A stretch of DNA of 31,186 bases from a virus: positions 1 to 31,186 of IMG/VR virus record IMGVR_UViG_3300040960_000334. One strand, 5' to 3'. Below are positions 1,467 through 18,433 of this stretch, in pieces (positions within the stretch are counted from its first letter, which is position 1; every line of letters begins with the position of its first letter). A model generated the notes under the pieces. That model worked only from the letters and a program-made list of their open reading frames with translations, did not search any database and was not told the DNA's origin. The position numbers were made by a program, and so were the translations under genes.

Positions 1467-1914
1467 GCCTTTTAAAGAAACTAAAGTAGGAAAAGTTCTA
1501 CTTGGTGCAGCTTCTATTATTAATCCTACACTTGGTAGTGTGTTAGAAGGCGTTTTAAGCCCCCAGGAAGCCATTTCAGAGATAATTAAGGCTGACATAC
1601 CACAAGAGGATAAAATCAAGCTACAAACGCTTATATACGAGCAGCAAGTAAAAGAAATGGAAGAGATAAGTGAAAGATGGAAATCTGACGCTTCTTCTGA
1701 CAGTTGGTTAAGTAAGAATGTTAGACCACTTGTTTTAATTTGGTGTATTGTTATTTTTACTATTGCAGGAATAGTCGATAGTGTTCAGGGTATACCTTTT
1801 GAAATTAGCAGTCTTTGGAATACTACTTTTGAAAATGTTATGATGGCAGTAGTATTAGCTTACTTTGGTGGTAGAACAACTGAAAAAGCCACTAATATCT
1901 TTAAAAAGAAATGA
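1459..1914 (+). CDS. 3TM holin (GTA-type)
   Basis: The 151-residue membrane protein resembles the 3TM holin family first named from gene transfer agents. It has a weakly hydrophobic N-terminal segment (about 13-33), a charged helical middle, the family-like stretch RWKSDASSDSWLSKNVRP (73-90), then two clear membrane segments at about 90-107 and 124-138, and a basic C-terminal tail. It presumably permeabilises the inner membrane so that the M15 enzyme just upstream can reach its substrate. It overlaps the endolysin gene by 8 bases and the next small gene by 4. Confidence 0.85.
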   Translation: MGKPFKETKVGKVLLGAASIINPTLGSVLEGVLSPQEAISEIIKADIPQEDKIKLQTLIYEQQVKEMEEISERWKSDASSDSWLSKNVRPLVLIWCIVIFTIAGIVDSVQGIPFEISSLWNTTFENVMMAVVLAYFGGRTTEKATNIFKKK

Positions 1915-2059: not shown

Positions 2060-2067
2060 TATATTTG
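2060..2067 (+). promoter_or_regulatory. Host-type -7 element ahead of the structured RNA
   Basis: TATATTTG matches the Bacteroidetes TAnnTTTG -7 box exactly, just after a 10-T run that follows the stop codon of the small basic gene. No good TTTG is visible at the expected -33 distance, so this is a half-match. Transcription would begin at about 2072-2075, where the first stem of the predicted RNA starts. Confidence 0.5.
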
Positions 2068-2071
2068 GGAC

Positions 2072-2299
2072 ATCTTGTTTATGCGTCTATAAATCACGAT
2101 TCGGCAAGATTAACTAACTGACTAGAATGGGAAGCTACCAAAGTCAGACTTCAACCTAAAGCAAACGAAGGGTAGTACTACACAGGAGTAGTGGAATTGC
2201 AAACCTAATTAACCTGTTAAAATTAGGTATCTGAATGACTCTGAAGGCTTTGACGAAGTATGAGTAATTTGGATGGGTAGCATAGGGCTACCTATATCC
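2072..2299 (+). ncRNA. Predicted multi-stem structured RNA of unknown family
   Basis: The 329 bases between genes (2049-2377) contain no credible ORF until 2378 but hold a run of hairpins read by eye: 2072-2077 with 2105-2110; 2118-2123 with 2142-2147; 2161-2164 with 2197-2200 enclosing 2177-2181 with 2188-2192; 2203-2210 with 2221-2228 (8 bp); 2238-2241 with 2262-2265 enclosing 2248-2250 with 2256-2258; and a strong last hairpin of 2271-2274 with 2296-2299 and 2275-2281 with 2287-2293. Its base composition is clearly richer in GC than the flanks. A TAnnTTTG box lies just upstream. Bases 2300-2377 are very AT-rich. I do not recognise the family. Confidence 0.6.
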
Positions 2300-2377
2300 T
2301 CTAACAACTGAAACTTTTCTAAAGTATAAATAATTAATATATACTATTATAAATAAAAAAAAATATAATACTATAAT

Positions 2378-2530
2378 ATGAAATTAGATATAAAAATAAA
2401 GCAGAATGAAAATTCAGATGAATTCTATGACATTAAATTATTTACTTATAAAGAAGTTATAGAAACTAAAGTAGATAAAGAAAACCTACGTTATTTGATA
2501 GGAAAAATAGATAACACTATCTTACCTTGA
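2378..2530 (+). CDS. Small hypothetical protein (50 aa)
   Basis: The product begins MKLDIKIKQNENSDEFYDIK and is charged and soluble, with no recognised motif. The start is preceded by an AT-rich stretch (AATACTATAAT), which is typical for the host group. Its TGA stop overlaps the TTG start of the next gene (TTGA), so translation of the two is probably coupled. It is the first gene after the structured RNA, so that RNA could also act as its long 5' leader. Confidence 0.65.
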   Translation: MKLDIKIKQNENSDEFYDIKLFTYKEVIETKVDKENLRYLIGKIDNTILP

Positions 2531-2934
2531 AAAAAAGAAAAAAAAGCCGTAAACAGCTTATAATAGCTTTAGATAGGGTGTTTTCTAAATACATTCGTAC
2601 TAAAAATTTAAGGGACAATTTAGTTGAGTGTGTTACTTGTAAAAGAAGATACCCACTAAAGTCTATTCAAGCAGGACACTTTATGTCTAGAAGGCATTAT
2701 TCTACCAGGTGGGATGAAGAAAATGTTTACCCCCAGTGTATGAAGTGTAATATGTATAGTCAGGGTGAGCAGTATTTGTTTTCAAAGTTTATAGATGAAA
2801 AGTACGGTGAAGGGTATAGTGATGTTTTACTTTTTAAGTCCCGGGAAACAGTTAAGTTTTCAGACTTTGAATTAGAAGAAATGATTGAGGACTACACAAA
2901 CAAGCTAAAAGTTTTGGAAAAGAACTTATTTTGA
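2527..2934 (+). CDS. ninG: NinG/Rap-like HNH-type recombination nuclease
   Basis: The 135-residue product matches the lambda NinG (Rap) pattern: a basic N-terminus (MKKRKKSRKQ), a zinc pair Cys35-x2-Cys38, the AGHF motif with His51, then NVYPQCMKCN with Cys71 and Cys74. Lambda Rap is a structure-specific nuclease that cuts recombination intermediates such as D-loops and Holliday junctions, so a role in recombination-dependent replication is likely. The chosen start is TTG, overlapping the previous stop as TTGA; no in-frame ATG is available before the conserved region. A terminator follows at 3008. Confidence 0.85.
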   Translation: MKKRKKSRKQLIIALDRVFSKYIRTKNLRDNLVECVTCKRRYPLKSIQAGHFMSRRHYSTRWDEENVYPQCMKCNMYSQGEQYLFSKFIDEKYGEGYSDVLLFKSRETVKFSDFELEEMIEDYTNKLKVLEKNLF

Positions 2935-2943: not shown

Positions 2944-3007
2944 CATTATGGAGAACTTTGTAGTAGTAGTTTTTTCATAGTTAATTTGAATTAGTGTTAA
3001 GGAAGAA

Positions 3008-3034
3008 GGGGAAGTTTACGCTTCCCTTTTTTTT
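3008..3034 (+). terminator. Rho-independent terminator after ninG-like gene
   Basis: A 6-bp perfect stem, GGGAAG (3009-3014) with CTTCCC (3021-3026), has loop TTTACG and is followed by eight T residues. A-T and G-T pairs can extend the stem outwards by three or four. It separates the lysis/ninG unit from the early unit that starts at 3044. Confidence 0.9.
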
Positions 3035-3043
3035 ATTTATTTT

Positions 3044-3072
3044 TTTGTTTTAAATAATTTTGTTTATATTTG
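3044..3072 (+). promoter_or_regulatory. Bacteroidetes-type promoter (early unit 1)
   Basis: TTTG at 3044-3047 and TATATTTG at 3065-3072 are spaced by 17 bases, a full match to the host TTTG/TAnnTTTG promoter. It sits immediately after a terminator. The 44 bases from 3062 to 3105 (the -7 box plus the leader up to the start codon) are about 84% identical to 7700-7743, marking a duplicated phage promoter-leader unit. Confidence 0.85.
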
Positions 3073-5458: not shown

Positions 5459-5602
5459 ATGGACTACGAATTAAGATTTATATTTAGTTTACCACACCAG
5501 AGGGTGTGTTTAGGATGGGAGATACTTAACCCAAGTGAGGAATTTCCTTATCAGACTTTAAAACTGTACTTGTTACTTTTAACGATTGAACTTGACCTAT
5601 AA
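5459..5602 (+). CDS. Small hypothetical protein (47 aa)
   Basis: The product begins MDYELRFIFSLPHQRVCLGW and ends LKLYLLLLTIELDL, with a hydrophobic end that could be a membrane helix or an amphipathic strand. It starts directly after the helicase stop, and its own stop overlaps the next ATG by one base (TAATG). This tight packing supports a real gene. No function is assigned. Confidence 0.65.
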   Translation: MDYELRFIFSLPHQRVCLGWEILNPSEEFPYQTLKLYLLLLTIELDL

Positions 5603-6126
5603 TGCTTCAAATTTTATCACGACATCACGACTTATGGTTAGCGTATGTAATTAGTTTTACGGTAAATCCTGATACTGCAAAAGACATAGTGCAGGAATTT
5701 TACTTAAAGATGCACGATTACGATAAGGATATTATGATAGGCGAAAAGATTAATTTCTATTTCGTCTATTTGGTTTTAAGGAATATGGTATTTGACCTAA
5801 AGAAAAAGGAAAAACGATTCTACTTTACAGAAGATTTACCTGCTTTAGAAGATGAAGAATACTTTGAAATAGACAACACAAAAAGCGAACACATTACCAG
5901 GTGGTTAAATGACCACAATTTAGATGAGTTAGATTTAGACAACACACAGAACTTAAAAAACATCTATAACGCTTGTGTATTTAACGAAGTATTCATAGAA
6001 GGTAAAAGTATTGCGGAACTATCTAGAGAAACCACAATCAGTTATTATTCGCTTTACAACACCGTTAAGATAATTAAGAACGAAATAAAACATAATTATC
6101 AGCAATGCAATTCAGAGAACTTGTAA
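5602..6126 (+). CDS. Sigma-70/ECF-like transcription factor 1
   Basis: The 174-residue product has a sigma region 2: DIVQEFYLKM (28-37), the usual core-RNA-polymerase-binding helix, and FVYLVLRNMVFDLKKKEKR (54-72), matching regions 2.3-2.4 that melt and read the -10 element. The C-terminal third (about 128-165, FIEGKSIAELSRETTISYYS then a recognition-like helix) matches region 4, which contacts the -35 element. Both halves suggest a complete alternative sigma factor, a likely driver of middle or late phage transcription. It overlaps a diverged paralogue by 22 bases. Confidence 0.8.
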   Translation: MLQILSRHHDLWLAYVISFTVNPDTAKDIVQEFYLKMHDYDKDIMIGEKINFYFVYLVLRNMVFDLKKKEKRFYFTEDLPALEDEEYFEIDNTKSEHITRWLNDHNLDELDLDNTQNLKNIYNACVFNEVFIEGKSIAELSRETTISYYSLYNTVKIIKNEIKHNYQQCNSENL

Positions 6127-6653
6127 ATCTTTTTGAGTATCGTGATTTATTGCTGAAATATTTGTATAAATATGGAATTGGCTATAATGATGCTCAAGAT
6201 ATTATTCAAGAATTCTTTATTAAAATGATGGATTATGATGGTAAAATATATATAGGCAAAAAACCTAATTACTTATTTCTTTATACTTGTATGAAAAATG
6301 CTGCATTAGATTTTAAAAAGAAAAAATCTTTAATGTTTGGTAATATTTTATCTTATGATGTAGTGAAGAATAATAAAAAATTTGCCGAAAGATTAGAAAC
6401 TATTCTGCATACTAATGAAAGTATTTTTAAATACGATAATGATGAGATAGAGGAATATGACAATAGGTTAAGATATGTATGTAAATTTTTAGATTCATCT
6501 GATGGTTTAATTTTAGATGATTTTTATTTCAATAAAAAAGATAAAAATTCCTACGATAAAAACTATTACAAAATATATAGGGCAGCCAATAAAATAAAAG
6601 AACAAATAAAACATAATTATGAAACTAGGAACGACCTTAGAGAATATATTTAG
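6105..6653 (+). CDS. Sigma-70/ECF-like transcription factor 2 (diverged paralogue)
   Basis: The 182-residue product is a tandem paralogue of the upstream sigma-like protein. It retains region 2: YNDAQDIIQEFFIKMMDYDG (27-46) and YLFLYTCMKNAALDFKKKKS (56-75). The middle is long and acidic (KYDNDEIEEYDNR), and the C-terminal helix-turn-helix is degenerate (DDFYFNKKDKNSYDKNYYKI), although its end (IKEQIKHNY) matches the end of factor 1 (IKNEIKHNY). Its codons are much more AT-rich than its neighbours, suggesting separate acquisition or fast divergence. Promoter -35 recognition may be weakened or changed; it could be an anti-sigma-like or partner factor. Confidence 0.7.
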   Translation: MQFRELVNLFEYRDLLLKYLYKYGIGYNDAQDIIQEFFIKMMDYDGKIYIGKKPNYLFLYTCMKNAALDFKKKKSLMFGNILSYDVVKNNKKFAERLETILHTNESIFKYDNDEIEEYDNRLRYVCKFLDSSDGLILDDFYFNKKDKNSYDKNYYKIYRAANKIKEQIKHNYETRNDLREYI

Positions 6654-11779: not shown

Positions 11780-12112
11780 ATGCCAAACCAAGAAAACTTA
11801 AGATACTGGAAGAAAGGCGAAAGCGGAAATCCTAATGGTAGACCTAAAGGTTCAAAGAACAGAAGCACCATAGCAAAGAAATGGTTACAAGTAATTCAAG
11901 AGGCAAAGAATCCTTTAACTTTAGAGTCAGAAGAATTAAGCCAAGAAGATTTAATTACTTTGGCATTACTTAAGAAAGCTGCTAAAGGTGATGTAAACGC
12001 ATACAAAGCATTAATGGATAGTGGCTATGGTTCACCTGTTCAACAAGTAGAACAAACTATTTTAGAACAACCTTTATTTCCAGATGTTCCAAAGGACAAC
12101 GGCAACAAATAA
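11780..12112 (+). CDS. terS: Terminase small subunit
   Basis: The 110-residue product opens with the DUF5681-type motif (WKKGESGNPNGRPKGSKNRS, residues 10-29), a basic segment common in phage small terminases, and continues with a helical oligomerisation region. It should recognise the packaging site and load DNA onto the large subunit. It overlaps TerL by 29 bases in another frame and lies first in the late operon. The assignment rests on the motif and position. Confidence 0.85.
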   Translation: MPNQENLRYWKKGESGNPNGRPKGSKNRSTIAKKWLQVIQEAKNPLTLESEELSQEDLITLALLKKAAKGDVNAYKALMDSGYGSPVQQVEQTILEQPLFPDVPKDNGNK

Positions 12113-13244
12113 AATACTTGCGCTTAACAAACGCATTAAGATAATTCAAGGTGGAACTTCGTCTTCAAAGACATTTTCCATCTTGGCTATTTTAATAGAC
12201 AAAGCTATTAAGAATCCTGACCTGGAGATAAGCGTAGTAGCCGAATCTATTCCACACCTGCGCAGGGGTGCATTTAAAGACTTCCTTAAAATCCTAAAGT
12301 GGACAAATAGATACCAAGATGACCAACTAAACAAATCACTTTTAAAGTACGAATTCAAAAACGGAAGTTATATAGAATTCTTTAGTGCTGACGATTCAAG
12401 TAAGTTAAGAGGTGCTAGAAGGGATATACTGTTTTTAAACGAAGCTACGGCTATTTCTTTAGATGCCTATAACGAACTATCAATACGGACTAAAAAGTCT
12501 ATCTACATTGATTACAATCCATCTAATGAATTTTGGGTACACACCGAACTAATCAACCAAGAAGATTCGGACTTTATCATTCTTACCTACAAAGACAACG
12601 AAGCACTAGACCAGGGAATAGTAGAACAAATCGAAAAGAACAAAGAGAAAGCAAAGACTTCTTCTTATTGGGCGAATTGGTGGAATGTTTATGGACTTGG
12701 ACAAGTAGGTTCTTTAGAAGGTGTGGTTTTTTCTAATTGGCAACAAATCGACACTATTCCACCTGAAGCAAAACTAGTAGGTATAGGTTTAGACTTTGGG
12801 TACACTAACGACCCTACGGCTATTGTTGAGGTGTACAGTTGGAACGGAAAAAGAATAGTAAACGAATTAGTCTATCGAACAAGAATGCTTAATTCAGACA
12901 TAGCGAAAGAACTACCTAAAGGCACTATCATTTATGCGGATTCAGCAGAACCTAAATCCATAGACGAAATCCGGAGATATGGTATCTCGATAAAGGGCGT
13001 AACAAAAGGAAGGGATAGTATCAATTACGGCATTGACATAATGCAGACACAAGAATACCTGGTAACAAAGAATAGTCAGAATCTAATCAAAGAATTAAGG
13101 GCGTATTGTTGGGACACAAACAAAGTAGGTCAAAGACTAAACAAACCAGTTCCGCATTTAGACCACGCCATTGATGCTCTCAGGTATCACGAAATGGAAG
13201 CACTAGGGATGAAAGCCAATTACGGAAAATACGCAGTTCGTTAA
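12084..13244 (+). CDS. terL: Terminase large subunit
   Basis: The 386-residue packaging motor has both domains. The ATPase has Walker A GGTSSSKT (23-30) and Walker B ILFLNE (115-120) with catalytic Glu120. The RNase H-fold nuclease has GLDFGYTNDPTA (Asp237), IIYADSAEPK (Asp286) and HLDHAIDALRY (Asp360, Asp364). The type fits the Terminase_3/XtmB group. Length is slightly short for the family but all key residues are present. It translocates and cuts phage DNA into proheads at the portal encoded at 24665. Confidence 0.95.
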   Translation: MFQRTTATNKILALNKRIKIIQGGTSSSKTFSILAILIDKAIKNPDLEISVVAESIPHLRRGAFKDFLKILKWTNRYQDDQLNKSLLKYEFKNGSYIEFFSADDSSKLRGARRDILFLNEATAISLDAYNELSIRTKKSIYIDYNPSNEFWVHTELINQEDSDFIILTYKDNEALDQGIVEQIEKNKEKAKTSSYWANWWNVYGLGQVGSLEGVVFSNWQQIDTIPPEAKLVGIGLDFGYTNDPTAIVEVYSWNGKRIVNELVYRTRMLNSDIAKELPKGTIIYADSAEPKSIDEIRRYGISIKGVTKGRDSINYGIDIMQTQEYLVTKNSQNLIKELRAYCWDTNKVGQRLNKPVPHLDHAIDALRYHEMEALGMKANYGKYAVR

Positions 13245-16072: not shown

Positions 16073-18433
16073 ATGCAGATAGTTCAGCTATATGTAGAAG
16101 GTGAGCGTGTAGATATGTTTCAAGACGAAAGCATTACTATTTCAGATAGTATCGCTAACGTAAAAGATATATCTAAAATCTACACAACCTATTCAAGACA
16201 ATTTACCCTACCTGCTTCTAAAACAAATAACAGAATATTCAAACACTACTATAACTTTGACATAACAGAAAATACTTTTGACGCAAGGTTTAGAGTAAGT
16301 GCGTATTTGAACGTAAACGGCATAAGATACAAAGATGGCAAGTTAAGATTAAGTGGTGTAAAGTTAAAAGACAACCAAGCGGATTCTTACCAGGTTACTT
16401 TCTTTGGTAATGCCATTACTTTAAAGGATAAGTTTGGAGAAGATAAGTTAGCGGATTTAGTAGGGGGTACTTATGGATTAAATAATTATGACCACGACTA
16501 CGACAATACAACGGTAAGAAATAGTTTCAATAATTCTACACCTTTATTTAGTGGTGATATTAAGTATAGTTTTTTATCACACACAAGGGTGTTTCAATTT
16601 GATGGAAGTGACACTACAACTTCTACTGGTGGTGCAAGTGGTAATGACAGATACGTTACTTACACAGACCTAAAGCCTTCTATTAGATTAAAGGCGATTA
16701 TAGACGCAATAGCTGAAAAGTATAGTCTAGACTTCAGTCAGTATTTTTGGAATACGGCTTATTTTAAGAATCTGTATATGTGGCTTCATAAACAAGCAGG
16801 TGGAATGACTCAAGCCGAAGGTAATAGGCTTACTAGTTACTTTGCAGATAGTTCTGTTTGGACTACACTAGGAACAGACCAAAGGATATTTCCCGGGGGA
16901 TATTTACAAACCTTTGGAACAGAACAACCTAACATAAATTTACGAAGAAGATACATAATAGAAGATTTTATAGTTACTGCACCTAGTGTAGATTATACTT
17001 TAGAAATTAGAGAAGGGGGTACTGTAAGGTTTAGAGGAACTGCCACAGGGACTAACACTTTCACAGTAGATGAAGTTTTAGGAGGAACACAAGCACACTA
17101 TTTAAATTTTACTATAATTAGTGATTCAGTATTTACACCAACAAACCAACAAATTAAAATAAGGGAGCAATATTGGAATAGTTTAAACCAATGGGCAGAT
17201 AGTACTTTAATTACTTATAATTGTGCATCCGGTGCAGTAACACAAACAGTAAGCGTAGCAGAACAGATGCCTGAGATGAAGGTCTACGACTTTGTAATTA
17301 ACTTGTTTAAGATGCACCTTTTAACTTCTTCTATAACTACGGAGTTAAACGGAGACGAAACAATAGAAGTACTTCCTTTAGTAGATTATTATTCGACAGG
17401 TACAGAACACGACATCACAAAATACATAGACGTAAAAGAAACACAAGTAGAACGACTATTACCATACAAAGAAATTAACTTTTCTTACAAGGGTAGAAAG
17501 ACTGCGCTTATTACTGCTTACAATGAGGCATTTCCGAATAACAAGTTCGGTGACTTGAATTGGAACGCAGGAACAGATGATATGGATGGTGAAAAGTTTT
17601 CTGTGGAGTTAGGCTTTGAGCATTTGTACTTTGAAAGACTTTATTCTTCAGGAGGCGCACAAAGTAATGTACAGAATGGTTTATTTATAAATAAAGACCT
17701 TGAACCAGTTGTAGGTTTACCTTTGATTCATTGCATAGTAGAAAGAAATCCTAGTGGACATTTGAAATGGAACAATCCAAGCATAGCACCTACTACTTTA
17801 ACGGCTTATAACGCACCTACTAACATAGACGCAAATAACAATTCTATTCATTGGGGTGCGCAGTTAAACGAATGGGATGAAGGACAAGAGGACAGAAGTC
17901 TTTATAATAGATTTTATTCAGATTACATAAGTTCTATATTTCAAGTAAGTGCTAGAAAACTAACTTACAAAGCCTATTTACCTTTAGGGGTGTTATTGAC
18001 TTATAAATTAAAAGATAGATTTAGAATAGGTAAACATACCTTTAAGATAGATTCTATAAACACTAATTTACAATCACAAGAAAGTACTTTAGTTTTATAT
18101 AATGAACTGCCTTCACTTTGGAATCCTAATAAAAGAGCAAACCTAACAGAAACAGTAAACGCAGGAAGAACTGAAAATGTAAGACTTGGTTCACCATCAC
18201 TTCCTGCTTATGTGAAATTAGAATGGGACAAGGTAGACAACGCTACTGAATATTTTATGTATGCCAATGGTGAATATATCGCTAAAGTCGTTCCAAGTGG
18301 TAGTAAGTTAGAATCTTATGAATTTACAACACTAGACAAAACTGTAAGTAATATCTTATCTGTTCAGGCGTATTTTGGAACGGTAGGGGCATTTAATGGA
18401 TTAGTAACACCTTTAGTATCAATAGCAGGATGA
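16073..18433 (+). CDS. Large baseplate/tail-hub-like protein with C-terminal Fn3 domain
   Basis: The 786-residue product opens with strands (MQIVQLYVEGERVDMFQDES) and a segment IYTTYSRQFTLPASKTNNRI, typical of tail proteins with an antifreeze-like or hub fold in Bacteroidetes phages. The central region is Tyr/Asn-rich beta structure. Residues about 703-786 (SLPAYVKLEWDKVDNATEYF onwards) form a fibronectin-III-like domain, often found at the ends of tail proteins for surface contact. It is a candidate tail-tip hub carrying receptor-facing modules. It precedes the tape measure, the reverse of the usual order. Confidence 0.65.
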   Translation: MQIVQLYVEGERVDMFQDESITISDSIANVKDISKIYTTYSRQFTLPASKTNNRIFKHYYNFDITENTFDARFRVSAYLNVNGIRYKDGKLRLSGVKLKDNQADSYQVTFFGNAITLKDKFGEDKLADLVGGTYGLNNYDHDYDNTTVRNSFNNSTPLFSGDIKYSFLSHTRVFQFDGSDTTTSTGGASGNDRYVTYTDLKPSIRLKAIIDAIAEKYSLDFSQYFWNTAYFKNLYMWLHKQAGGMTQAEGNRLTSYFADSSVWTTLGTDQRIFPGGYLQTFGTEQPNINLRRRYIIEDFIVTAPSVDYTLEIREGGTVRFRGTATGTNTFTVDEVLGGTQAHYLNFTIISDSVFTPTNQQIKIREQYWNSLNQWADSTLITYNCASGAVTQTVSVAEQMPEMKVYDFVINLFKMHLLTSSITTELNGDETIEVLPLVDYYSTGTEHDITKYIDVKETQVERLLPYKEINFSYKGRKTALITAYNEAFPNNKFGDLNWNAGTDDMDGEKFSVELGFEHLYFERLYSSGGAQSNVQNGLFINKDLEPVVGLPLIHCIVERNPSGHLKWNNPSIAPTTLTAYNAPTNIDANNNSIHWGAQLNEWDEGQEDRSLYNRFYSDYISSIFQVSARKLTYKAYLPLGVLLTYKLKDRFRIGKHTFKIDSINTNLQSQESTLVLYNELPSLWNPNKRANLTETVNAGRTENVRLGSPSLPAYVKLEWDKVDNATEYFMYANGEYIAKVVPSGSKLESYEFTTLDKTVSNILSVQAYFGTVGAFNGLVTPLVSIAG

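Follow-up and report, generated by a model that had tools for sequence, protein, structure and literature searches.

The put RNAs of phage HK022, structured and about 70 nt long, lie close to an early promoter and work in cis on their own operon. RNA II of ColE1, a replication primer, has its own promoter, a conserved fold and no close terminator, and it works independently of orientation, while 6S RNA consists of one long hairpin with a central bubble. Stand-alone phage RNAs of riboswitch-like complexity are few and the best known of them, GOLLD and ROOL, are structured phage or prophage RNAs with multiple long-range contacts for which a function is still lacking (PMC12286853). A structured non-coding RNA of the phage lysis region, RCd22 or the abiF motif RNA (RF03085), binds a protein in trans (PMC12373285).

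The window analysed here is a viral DNA stretch of 31,186 nucleotides (IMG/VR record IMGVR_UViG_3300040960_000334). As judged by comparison with related sequences, its bases 2072 to about 2332 form a structured non-coding RNA of about 260-265 bases, which is referred to as type A. The RNA was found in at least 15 IMG/VR contigs besides the window and these fall into two groups, the window group and the distant group, which are about 60-65% alike. An earlier note, made from this sequence, had proposed that an RNA with several stems, of no recognised family, separates the lysis genes from the early genes; homologues, compensatory changes and the lack of a coding signal fully support that proposal. 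The span given there, 2060-2299, falls short at its 3' limit, as the conserved element extends to about 2332 because residues 2247-2252 pair with 2320-2325. Sequence identity among the relatives drops beyond this point.

Type A, seen here in phages of Bacteroidota, is a new family inside the known class of phage structured RNAs. Like GOLLD and ROOL, it is a structured phage RNA with several long-range contacts, but it is much shorter than GOLLD, which often exceeds 800 nt and lies near tRNA islands, and it is unrelated in sequence and structure; neither model matched it, the one GOLLD fragment seen with the distant homologue scoring 11.9 bits against a cut-off of 150. It is likewise found beside phage lysis genes as RCd22 is, but its structure is different; RF03085 gave no match and none of the neighbour proteins searched matched Abi_2/AbiF. 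The likeness to put lies in a structured RNA close to an early phage promoter, but type A occurs inverted too: the RNA was observed between a promoter and the operon it would serve, on the same strand, in the window group but not in L152, L196 and L198 of the distant group. With ColE1 RNA II it shares its own promoter box, conserved fold, lack of a close terminator and free orientation; to our knowledge there is no sequence relation between the two. The Bacteroidota 6S RNA (6S-Flavo, RF01685) is a polymerase-binding non-coding RNA of the same kind of host. The type A fold differs from it in being multibranched and the 6S model gave no match, where a separate 6S genome search gave none in the control genomes either.

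Neither the window RNA nor the distant homologue matched any Rfam 15 family above the curated gathering cut-off, in keeping with the unknown family first suspected, and a permissive threshold returned only chance matches. GenBank phage and plasmid sequences, searched with BLASTN, gave no match. Exact 23-mer and 18-mer searches of 84,980 bacterial and archaeal genomes gave one 18-mer match, in a Legionellaceae MAG, which was rejected as chance since only the query bases fit the model. Mimicry of rRNA was considered by comparison with E. coli 16S and 23S and was also rejected. One of the eight whole-RNA comparisons beat all 60 shuffles, that of the window RNA with 23S (score 48, shuffle maximum 44), through a long gapped alignment; the distant homologue lacked this resemblance (p 0.47), and a comparison restricted to P1 was not significant. 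No link was found between the RNA and the terminase locus (12084-13244), and the evidence speaks neither for nor against the packaging role (as in the phi29 type of RNA) or the host-polymerase role that the earlier note had suggested.

The RNA occupies a 329-base gap (2049-2377), as originally noticed, which is bounded by a basic ORF of 45 aa (1911-2048) on one side and the ORF starting at 2378 on the other. The absence of a coding frame also held on inspection: open stretches across the gap reach at most 24 aa on the plus strand and 43 aa on the minus strand and 1-nt indels occur among the relatives. The 45-aa ORF is unlisted and very basic with the C-terminus YKGQGR and it overlaps the holin stop codon. 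Its relatives occur at 69 viral loci, often in other types of context without the RNA, and L145, which carries the type B RNA described below, does so without this ORF.

The TAnnTTTG box that the earlier note had placed just upstream is present as TATATTTG. This motif is the -7 box of Bacteroidota sigma-A (PMC9723704; PMC7366714) and sits at -12 to -5 relative to the transcription start (PMC9723704). It was observed directly upstream of the type A RNA, at a fixed place, in all 13 full-length 5' ends examined and in both gene orientations. In 10 of these the +1 predicted from the box coincides with the base at which P1 pairing begins, and in the other three it lies within two bases of it. A second TATATTTG box at 3065, after the terminator-like site that ends the ninG unit, would serve the next early operon. 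Neither the window nor the distant group shows a terminator-like site 3' of the type A RNA; therefore, in the window group, a transcript from the RNA promoter could run on into ORF50-ninG.

The homologues sought in related phage contigs were located in two ways. Those of the window group, in 11 other IMG/VR contigs (L002-L009, L013, L036 and L041), were located through the neighbouring NinG and a 25-mer, and here conservation runs from the promoter box to about 2332 and is followed by an AT-rich linker of about 45-130 nt. For the distant group, a 16-mer from the invariant junction gave 60 stretches which were scored with model R1; L152, L188, L196 and L198 scored 90-101 bits (E about 1e-27 to 1e-31) and the remaining stretches were at background. 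Strong matches are single in each phage record, and the RNA is always placed at the junction of lysis and early genes, where it can face either way. The window RNA is 93.5% identical to that of L041, compared with 78% for ninG, 78% for orf50 and 81% for the small ORF at the DNA level, and on these identities the RNA evolves more slowly than its neighbour genes.

The coordinates of the helices and of the surrounding features are collected in Table 1. The sequence of helix P3, which closes the multibranch junction, is invariant and it therefore shows no covariation; its complement is retained in the distant group, but at a shifted position. Changes on both sides of a pair were observed at four pairs of P1 in the distant group, whereas the U-G pairs 2078-2104 and 2079-2103 occur in all sequences. 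All five pairs of P2 show such changes, with three pair types at position 2119-2146. The 8-bp stem first noticed here, P5, is a genuine helix by the same measure, with both-side changes at 4-5 pairs (five of the eight in the relatives), where L041 and the distant group changed independently. The hairpin seen at 2271-2299 likewise stands, as the apex of P6; its fourth pair, T2274-A2296, keeps T-A throughout the window group but is replaced by C-G in the distant group. The P6 apex is conserved, while the lower stem is clear in the window group only. Most invariant bases fall in loops and junctions.

Table 1. Positions of the type A RNA, its structural elements and neighbouring features in the window, with the type B RNA of other contigs
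Feature	Position	Strand	Remarks
TATATTTG box	2060-2067	+	Bacteroidota sigma-A -7 box; predicted +1 at 2072
Type A non-coding RNA gene (predicted)	2072-2332	+	kept in 15 other contigs, strong covariation
P1 hairpin	2072-2110	+	2072-2079 with 2103-2110; inner 2084-2086 with 2096-2098
P2 hairpin	2118-2147	+	2118-2122 with 2143-2147
PK1 strand 1, GCUACC in P2 loop	2134-2139	+	pairs with 2171-2176
P3 5' strand, CUUCA	2149-2153	+	pairs with UGAAG 2242-2246; closes multibranch junction
Invariant junction ACCUAAAGCAAACGAAG	2154-2170	+	same letters in all homologues
PK1 strand 2, GGUAGU	2171-2176	+	pairs with 2134-2139
P4 hairpin	2177-2192	+	2177-2181 with 2188-2192; both-side changes at 2 pairs
Kissing-loop strand 1, ACAGG in P4 loop	2182-2186	+	pairs with CCUGU 2213-2217
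P5 hairpin	2203-2228	+	2203-2210 with 2221-2228; loop holds kissing strand 2
Kissing-loop strand 2, CCUGU in P5 loop	2213-2217	+	pairs with 2182-2186
P3 3' strand, UGAAG	2242-2246	+	partner of 2149-2153
P6 long irregular hairpin	2247-2325	+	apex 2271-2274 with 2296-2299, 2276-2280 with 2288-2292
AT-rich linker	2333-2377		length and sequence variable; within 93% A+T stretch 2318-2377
50-aa ORF (ORF50)	2378-2530	+	phrog_38034, function unassigned
NinG/Rap-like junction endonuclease	2527-2934	+	phrog_5034, E 9e-29
Strong intrinsic terminator-like site	3001-3034	+	end of ninG unit
Type B RNA	L014:1126-1396; L015:2577-2847; L117:5880-6148; L145:942-1211	L117 (-)	

Two long-range contacts, the pseudoknot PK1 of the P2 loop and a kissing loop between P4 and P5, were absent from every folding prediction and surfaced in the covariation search. 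At the level of sequence comparison, both are proven by matching changes in the relatives. In the distant group PK1 reads GCAGAC/GUCUGU, with both-side changes at three pairs, and a G-U pair of PK1 becomes G-C in L009. The kissing loop was observed as AUAGG/CCUAU in L041 and as GUAGG/CCUAC in the distant group.

Three alignments (A7, A8 and A9) combine the window and distant groups. A7, which was fitted to the model, shows 24 pairs with both-side changes. A9 was aligned by sequence only and searched blindly for helices that pair in all rows; this gave six helices with at least two both-side changes, compared with a mean of 0.03 after column shuffles and 0.59 (maximum 2) after block shuffles. 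The seven core helices pair in all 11 aligned sequences (385/385 cells) and their covariation score is 0.518, where shuffled letters gave 0.192 and slid partners no more than 0.05. The compensatory changes that the earlier note had asked for in the stems are thus abundant, with both-side changes at 18 of the 35 core pairs, PK1 and the kissing loop included, many of the counts reflecting one deep ancestral split because the distant group comprises only four sequences, i.e. two close pairs. P2, P5, PK1 and the kissing loop vary further within the window group, where L041 and L009 are separate events and compensatory changes are present even in P2 and P5.

Single-sequence folding energy is only mildly better than chance (z -1.83 on the plus strand and -0.25 on the minus strand; -1.63 for 2070-2332), with the 3' domain at 2247-2332 standing out (z -3.26). 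The energy minimum of the full-length single sequence equals the multi-sequence consensus except for a few pairs in P2 and the upper P6 hairpin. Some of the pairs given by folding programs yield to the pseudoknot and the kissing loop. For example, a basal stem of P4 proposed by RNAalifold (2172-2176 with 2196-2200) was dropped, as it breaks in the distant group and PK1 takes over. The proof of structure, such as letters can give, is therefore the comparative evidence and not single-sequence energy.

In the window group the promoter, RNA, ORF50, ninG and the terminator-like site all lie on one strand. In L152, L196 and L198 the lysis/early junction again holds the RNA, but here it runs against the flanking lysis and early genes; in these three and in L188 the early ORF has a separate, divergent TAnnTTTG on the strand opposite to the RNA. 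The lysis side consists of a phage lysozyme (PF00959) and a spanin-like ORF in L196, whereas in L198 a different peptidase-like ORF stands ahead of the spanin-like one. L198 also has an ORF containing an HNH-like motif (1476-1892, minus strand; no Pfam match) that begins within the last bases of the RNA and is absent from the close relative L196, as if inserted at the RNA 3' end.

The earlier note had also offered a leader of the 2378-ninG unit as the function. As a general or shared function this is ruled out, since the distant RNAs point away from the early genes and the early ORF has its own box; the variable window-group linker speaks against it too. We found neither a constant position relative to a regulated gene nor an expression platform of the kind expected of a cis-regulatory leader or riboswitch. 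Type A is thus almost certainly a stand-alone structured RNA gene, on the evidence of its arrangement in these contigs.

Another structured RNA, type B, about 260 nt long and likewise conserved but different in sequence, follows the same box in L014-L017, L117, L145 and L011 (where it is cut) and extends nearly to the ORF50 start codon. It is 93-96% identical among these, compared with 86-89% for ninG, and shows some both-side changes (CCGAG/CUCGG and CGCA/UGCG). A search of Rfam with type B gave no family, only chance matches. Homology between A and B was considered and rejected: pairwise alignment gave p values of 0.01 to 0.7, models R1 and R2 miss B and R3 misses the window. The two are mutually exclusive, as no record holds both. 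In L041 the small ORF and the overlapping upstream ORF resemble those of the B phages, yet the RNA is type A, and this mixed make-up suggests that the RNA may be exchanged at the lysis/early slot. In the more distant relatives L021-L035 the slot holds the promoter and a short leader only. That one slot is filled by either of two unrelated RNAs, A or B, suggests a need for an RNA at this place.

We consider the best overall explanation, with a probability of about 0.5, to be a promoter-driven separate RNA that acts in trans by binding a protein. Host sigma-A polymerase would transcribe it early in infection as a separate transcript starting at P1, and its folded, nearly invariant surface would bind a host or phage protein and so change how host or phage genes are expressed, or block a defence; in the sister phages type B, though unrelated, would do a like job. 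Protein binding in trans, taken by itself, falls a little short of even odds. It is favoured because the invariant bases are distributed across loops and junctions, the RNA occurs in either orientation and none of the possible antisense targets is conspicuous. As invariant bases lie mostly in loops and junctions, a binding surface seems a better description than a short antisense seed. Any one particular target is improbable. Tentatively, and well below even odds, type A may represent a class of RNA effector new to phages: small, pseudoknotted and produced early, it would act within an RNP to put a host machine or defence out of action or to redirect it, and its slot would be exchangeable; if so, the non-homologous type B of the sister phages would serve the same or a rival target there. 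A short RNA with covariation-proven helices, an exactly predicted 5' end and natural compensatory variants makes the function directly testable.

The constant lysis/early position could equally mean a role in cis, for example in replication. The main rival, rather unlikely in our estimate, is a replication primer or origin RNA like ColE1 RNA II or the T4 origin transcripts: the folded transcript would form an R-loop, either within the AT-rich stretch or past it, and prime DNA synthesis. It accounts equally well for the promoter box that is always there, the lack of a terminator, the occurrence in either orientation and the location, which is constant, with one copy per record, beside replication genes (SSB and helicase). 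The A+T-rich sequence right downstream in the window fits this and the alternative types A and B resemble replicon types. However, no GC-skew switch and no direct-repeat iterons nearby were found, neither L152/L196 nor type B has an AT-rich linker behind the RNA, and no RNA II-like family was recognised.

Two further models fit the window group only, because the distant RNA is opposite to the early genes. In the first, distinctly less probable than a primer, the RNA is a cis antitermination leader like put, the nascent transcript modifying polymerase so that it reads through early-operon terminators. The window-group RNA would be the first part of the transcript from an early-type promoter, ninG has a strong terminator behind it and so complex a fold would be apt for binding polymerase during transcription, but read-through from the distant RNA would be antisense to the spanin and lysozyme genes and the next early operon has its own box. 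The second, a leader or riboswitch for ORF50-ninG, has slighter prospects still. The same strand and the lack of an intervening terminator in the window group agree with it, but not the opposite orientation in the distant group, the next early gene of L152, which is not ninG, or a linker of such variable length without a recognisable expression platform.

An antisense regulator of lysis genes is very improbable: the distant RNA is convergent with spanin and lysozyme, abutting the spanin stop codon in L196 and lying near it in L152, but in the window group it is downstream of the lysis genes on the same strand, the stretches in which it is complementary to the phage genome are short and fall largely within its AT-rich tail, and a conserved pseudoknotted fold would be unnecessary. 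A candidate target, with 14 nt of perfect complementarity between the RNA tail (2316-2329) and the coding strand at 16993, is AT-rich and was rejected as probably chance. Chance hairpins or a cis DNA element such as a recombination or packaging site with no transcript, the least probable reading, would suit the mildly non-random folding and a case built from DNA letters, but not G-U pairs kept on one strand only, a fixed promoter box and six covarying helices.

Other features were noticed in the window. Two similar but non-identical genes beginning MK-(Y/V)-FRKYQFGSK lie at 70-441 and at the right end; no terminal repeat of the record was found, and given these end genes the record may be incomplete or may hold a tandem gene pair. 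A 217-aa ORF at 10792-11445 matches C5 DNA methylase over residues 1-82 only (PF00145 positions 1-82). Furthermore, two adjacent ORFs at 5602-6653 each match the phage sigma-factor family phrog_1740, the second also matching Pfam Sigma70_r2, and the phage may therefore encode its own sigma factor(s).
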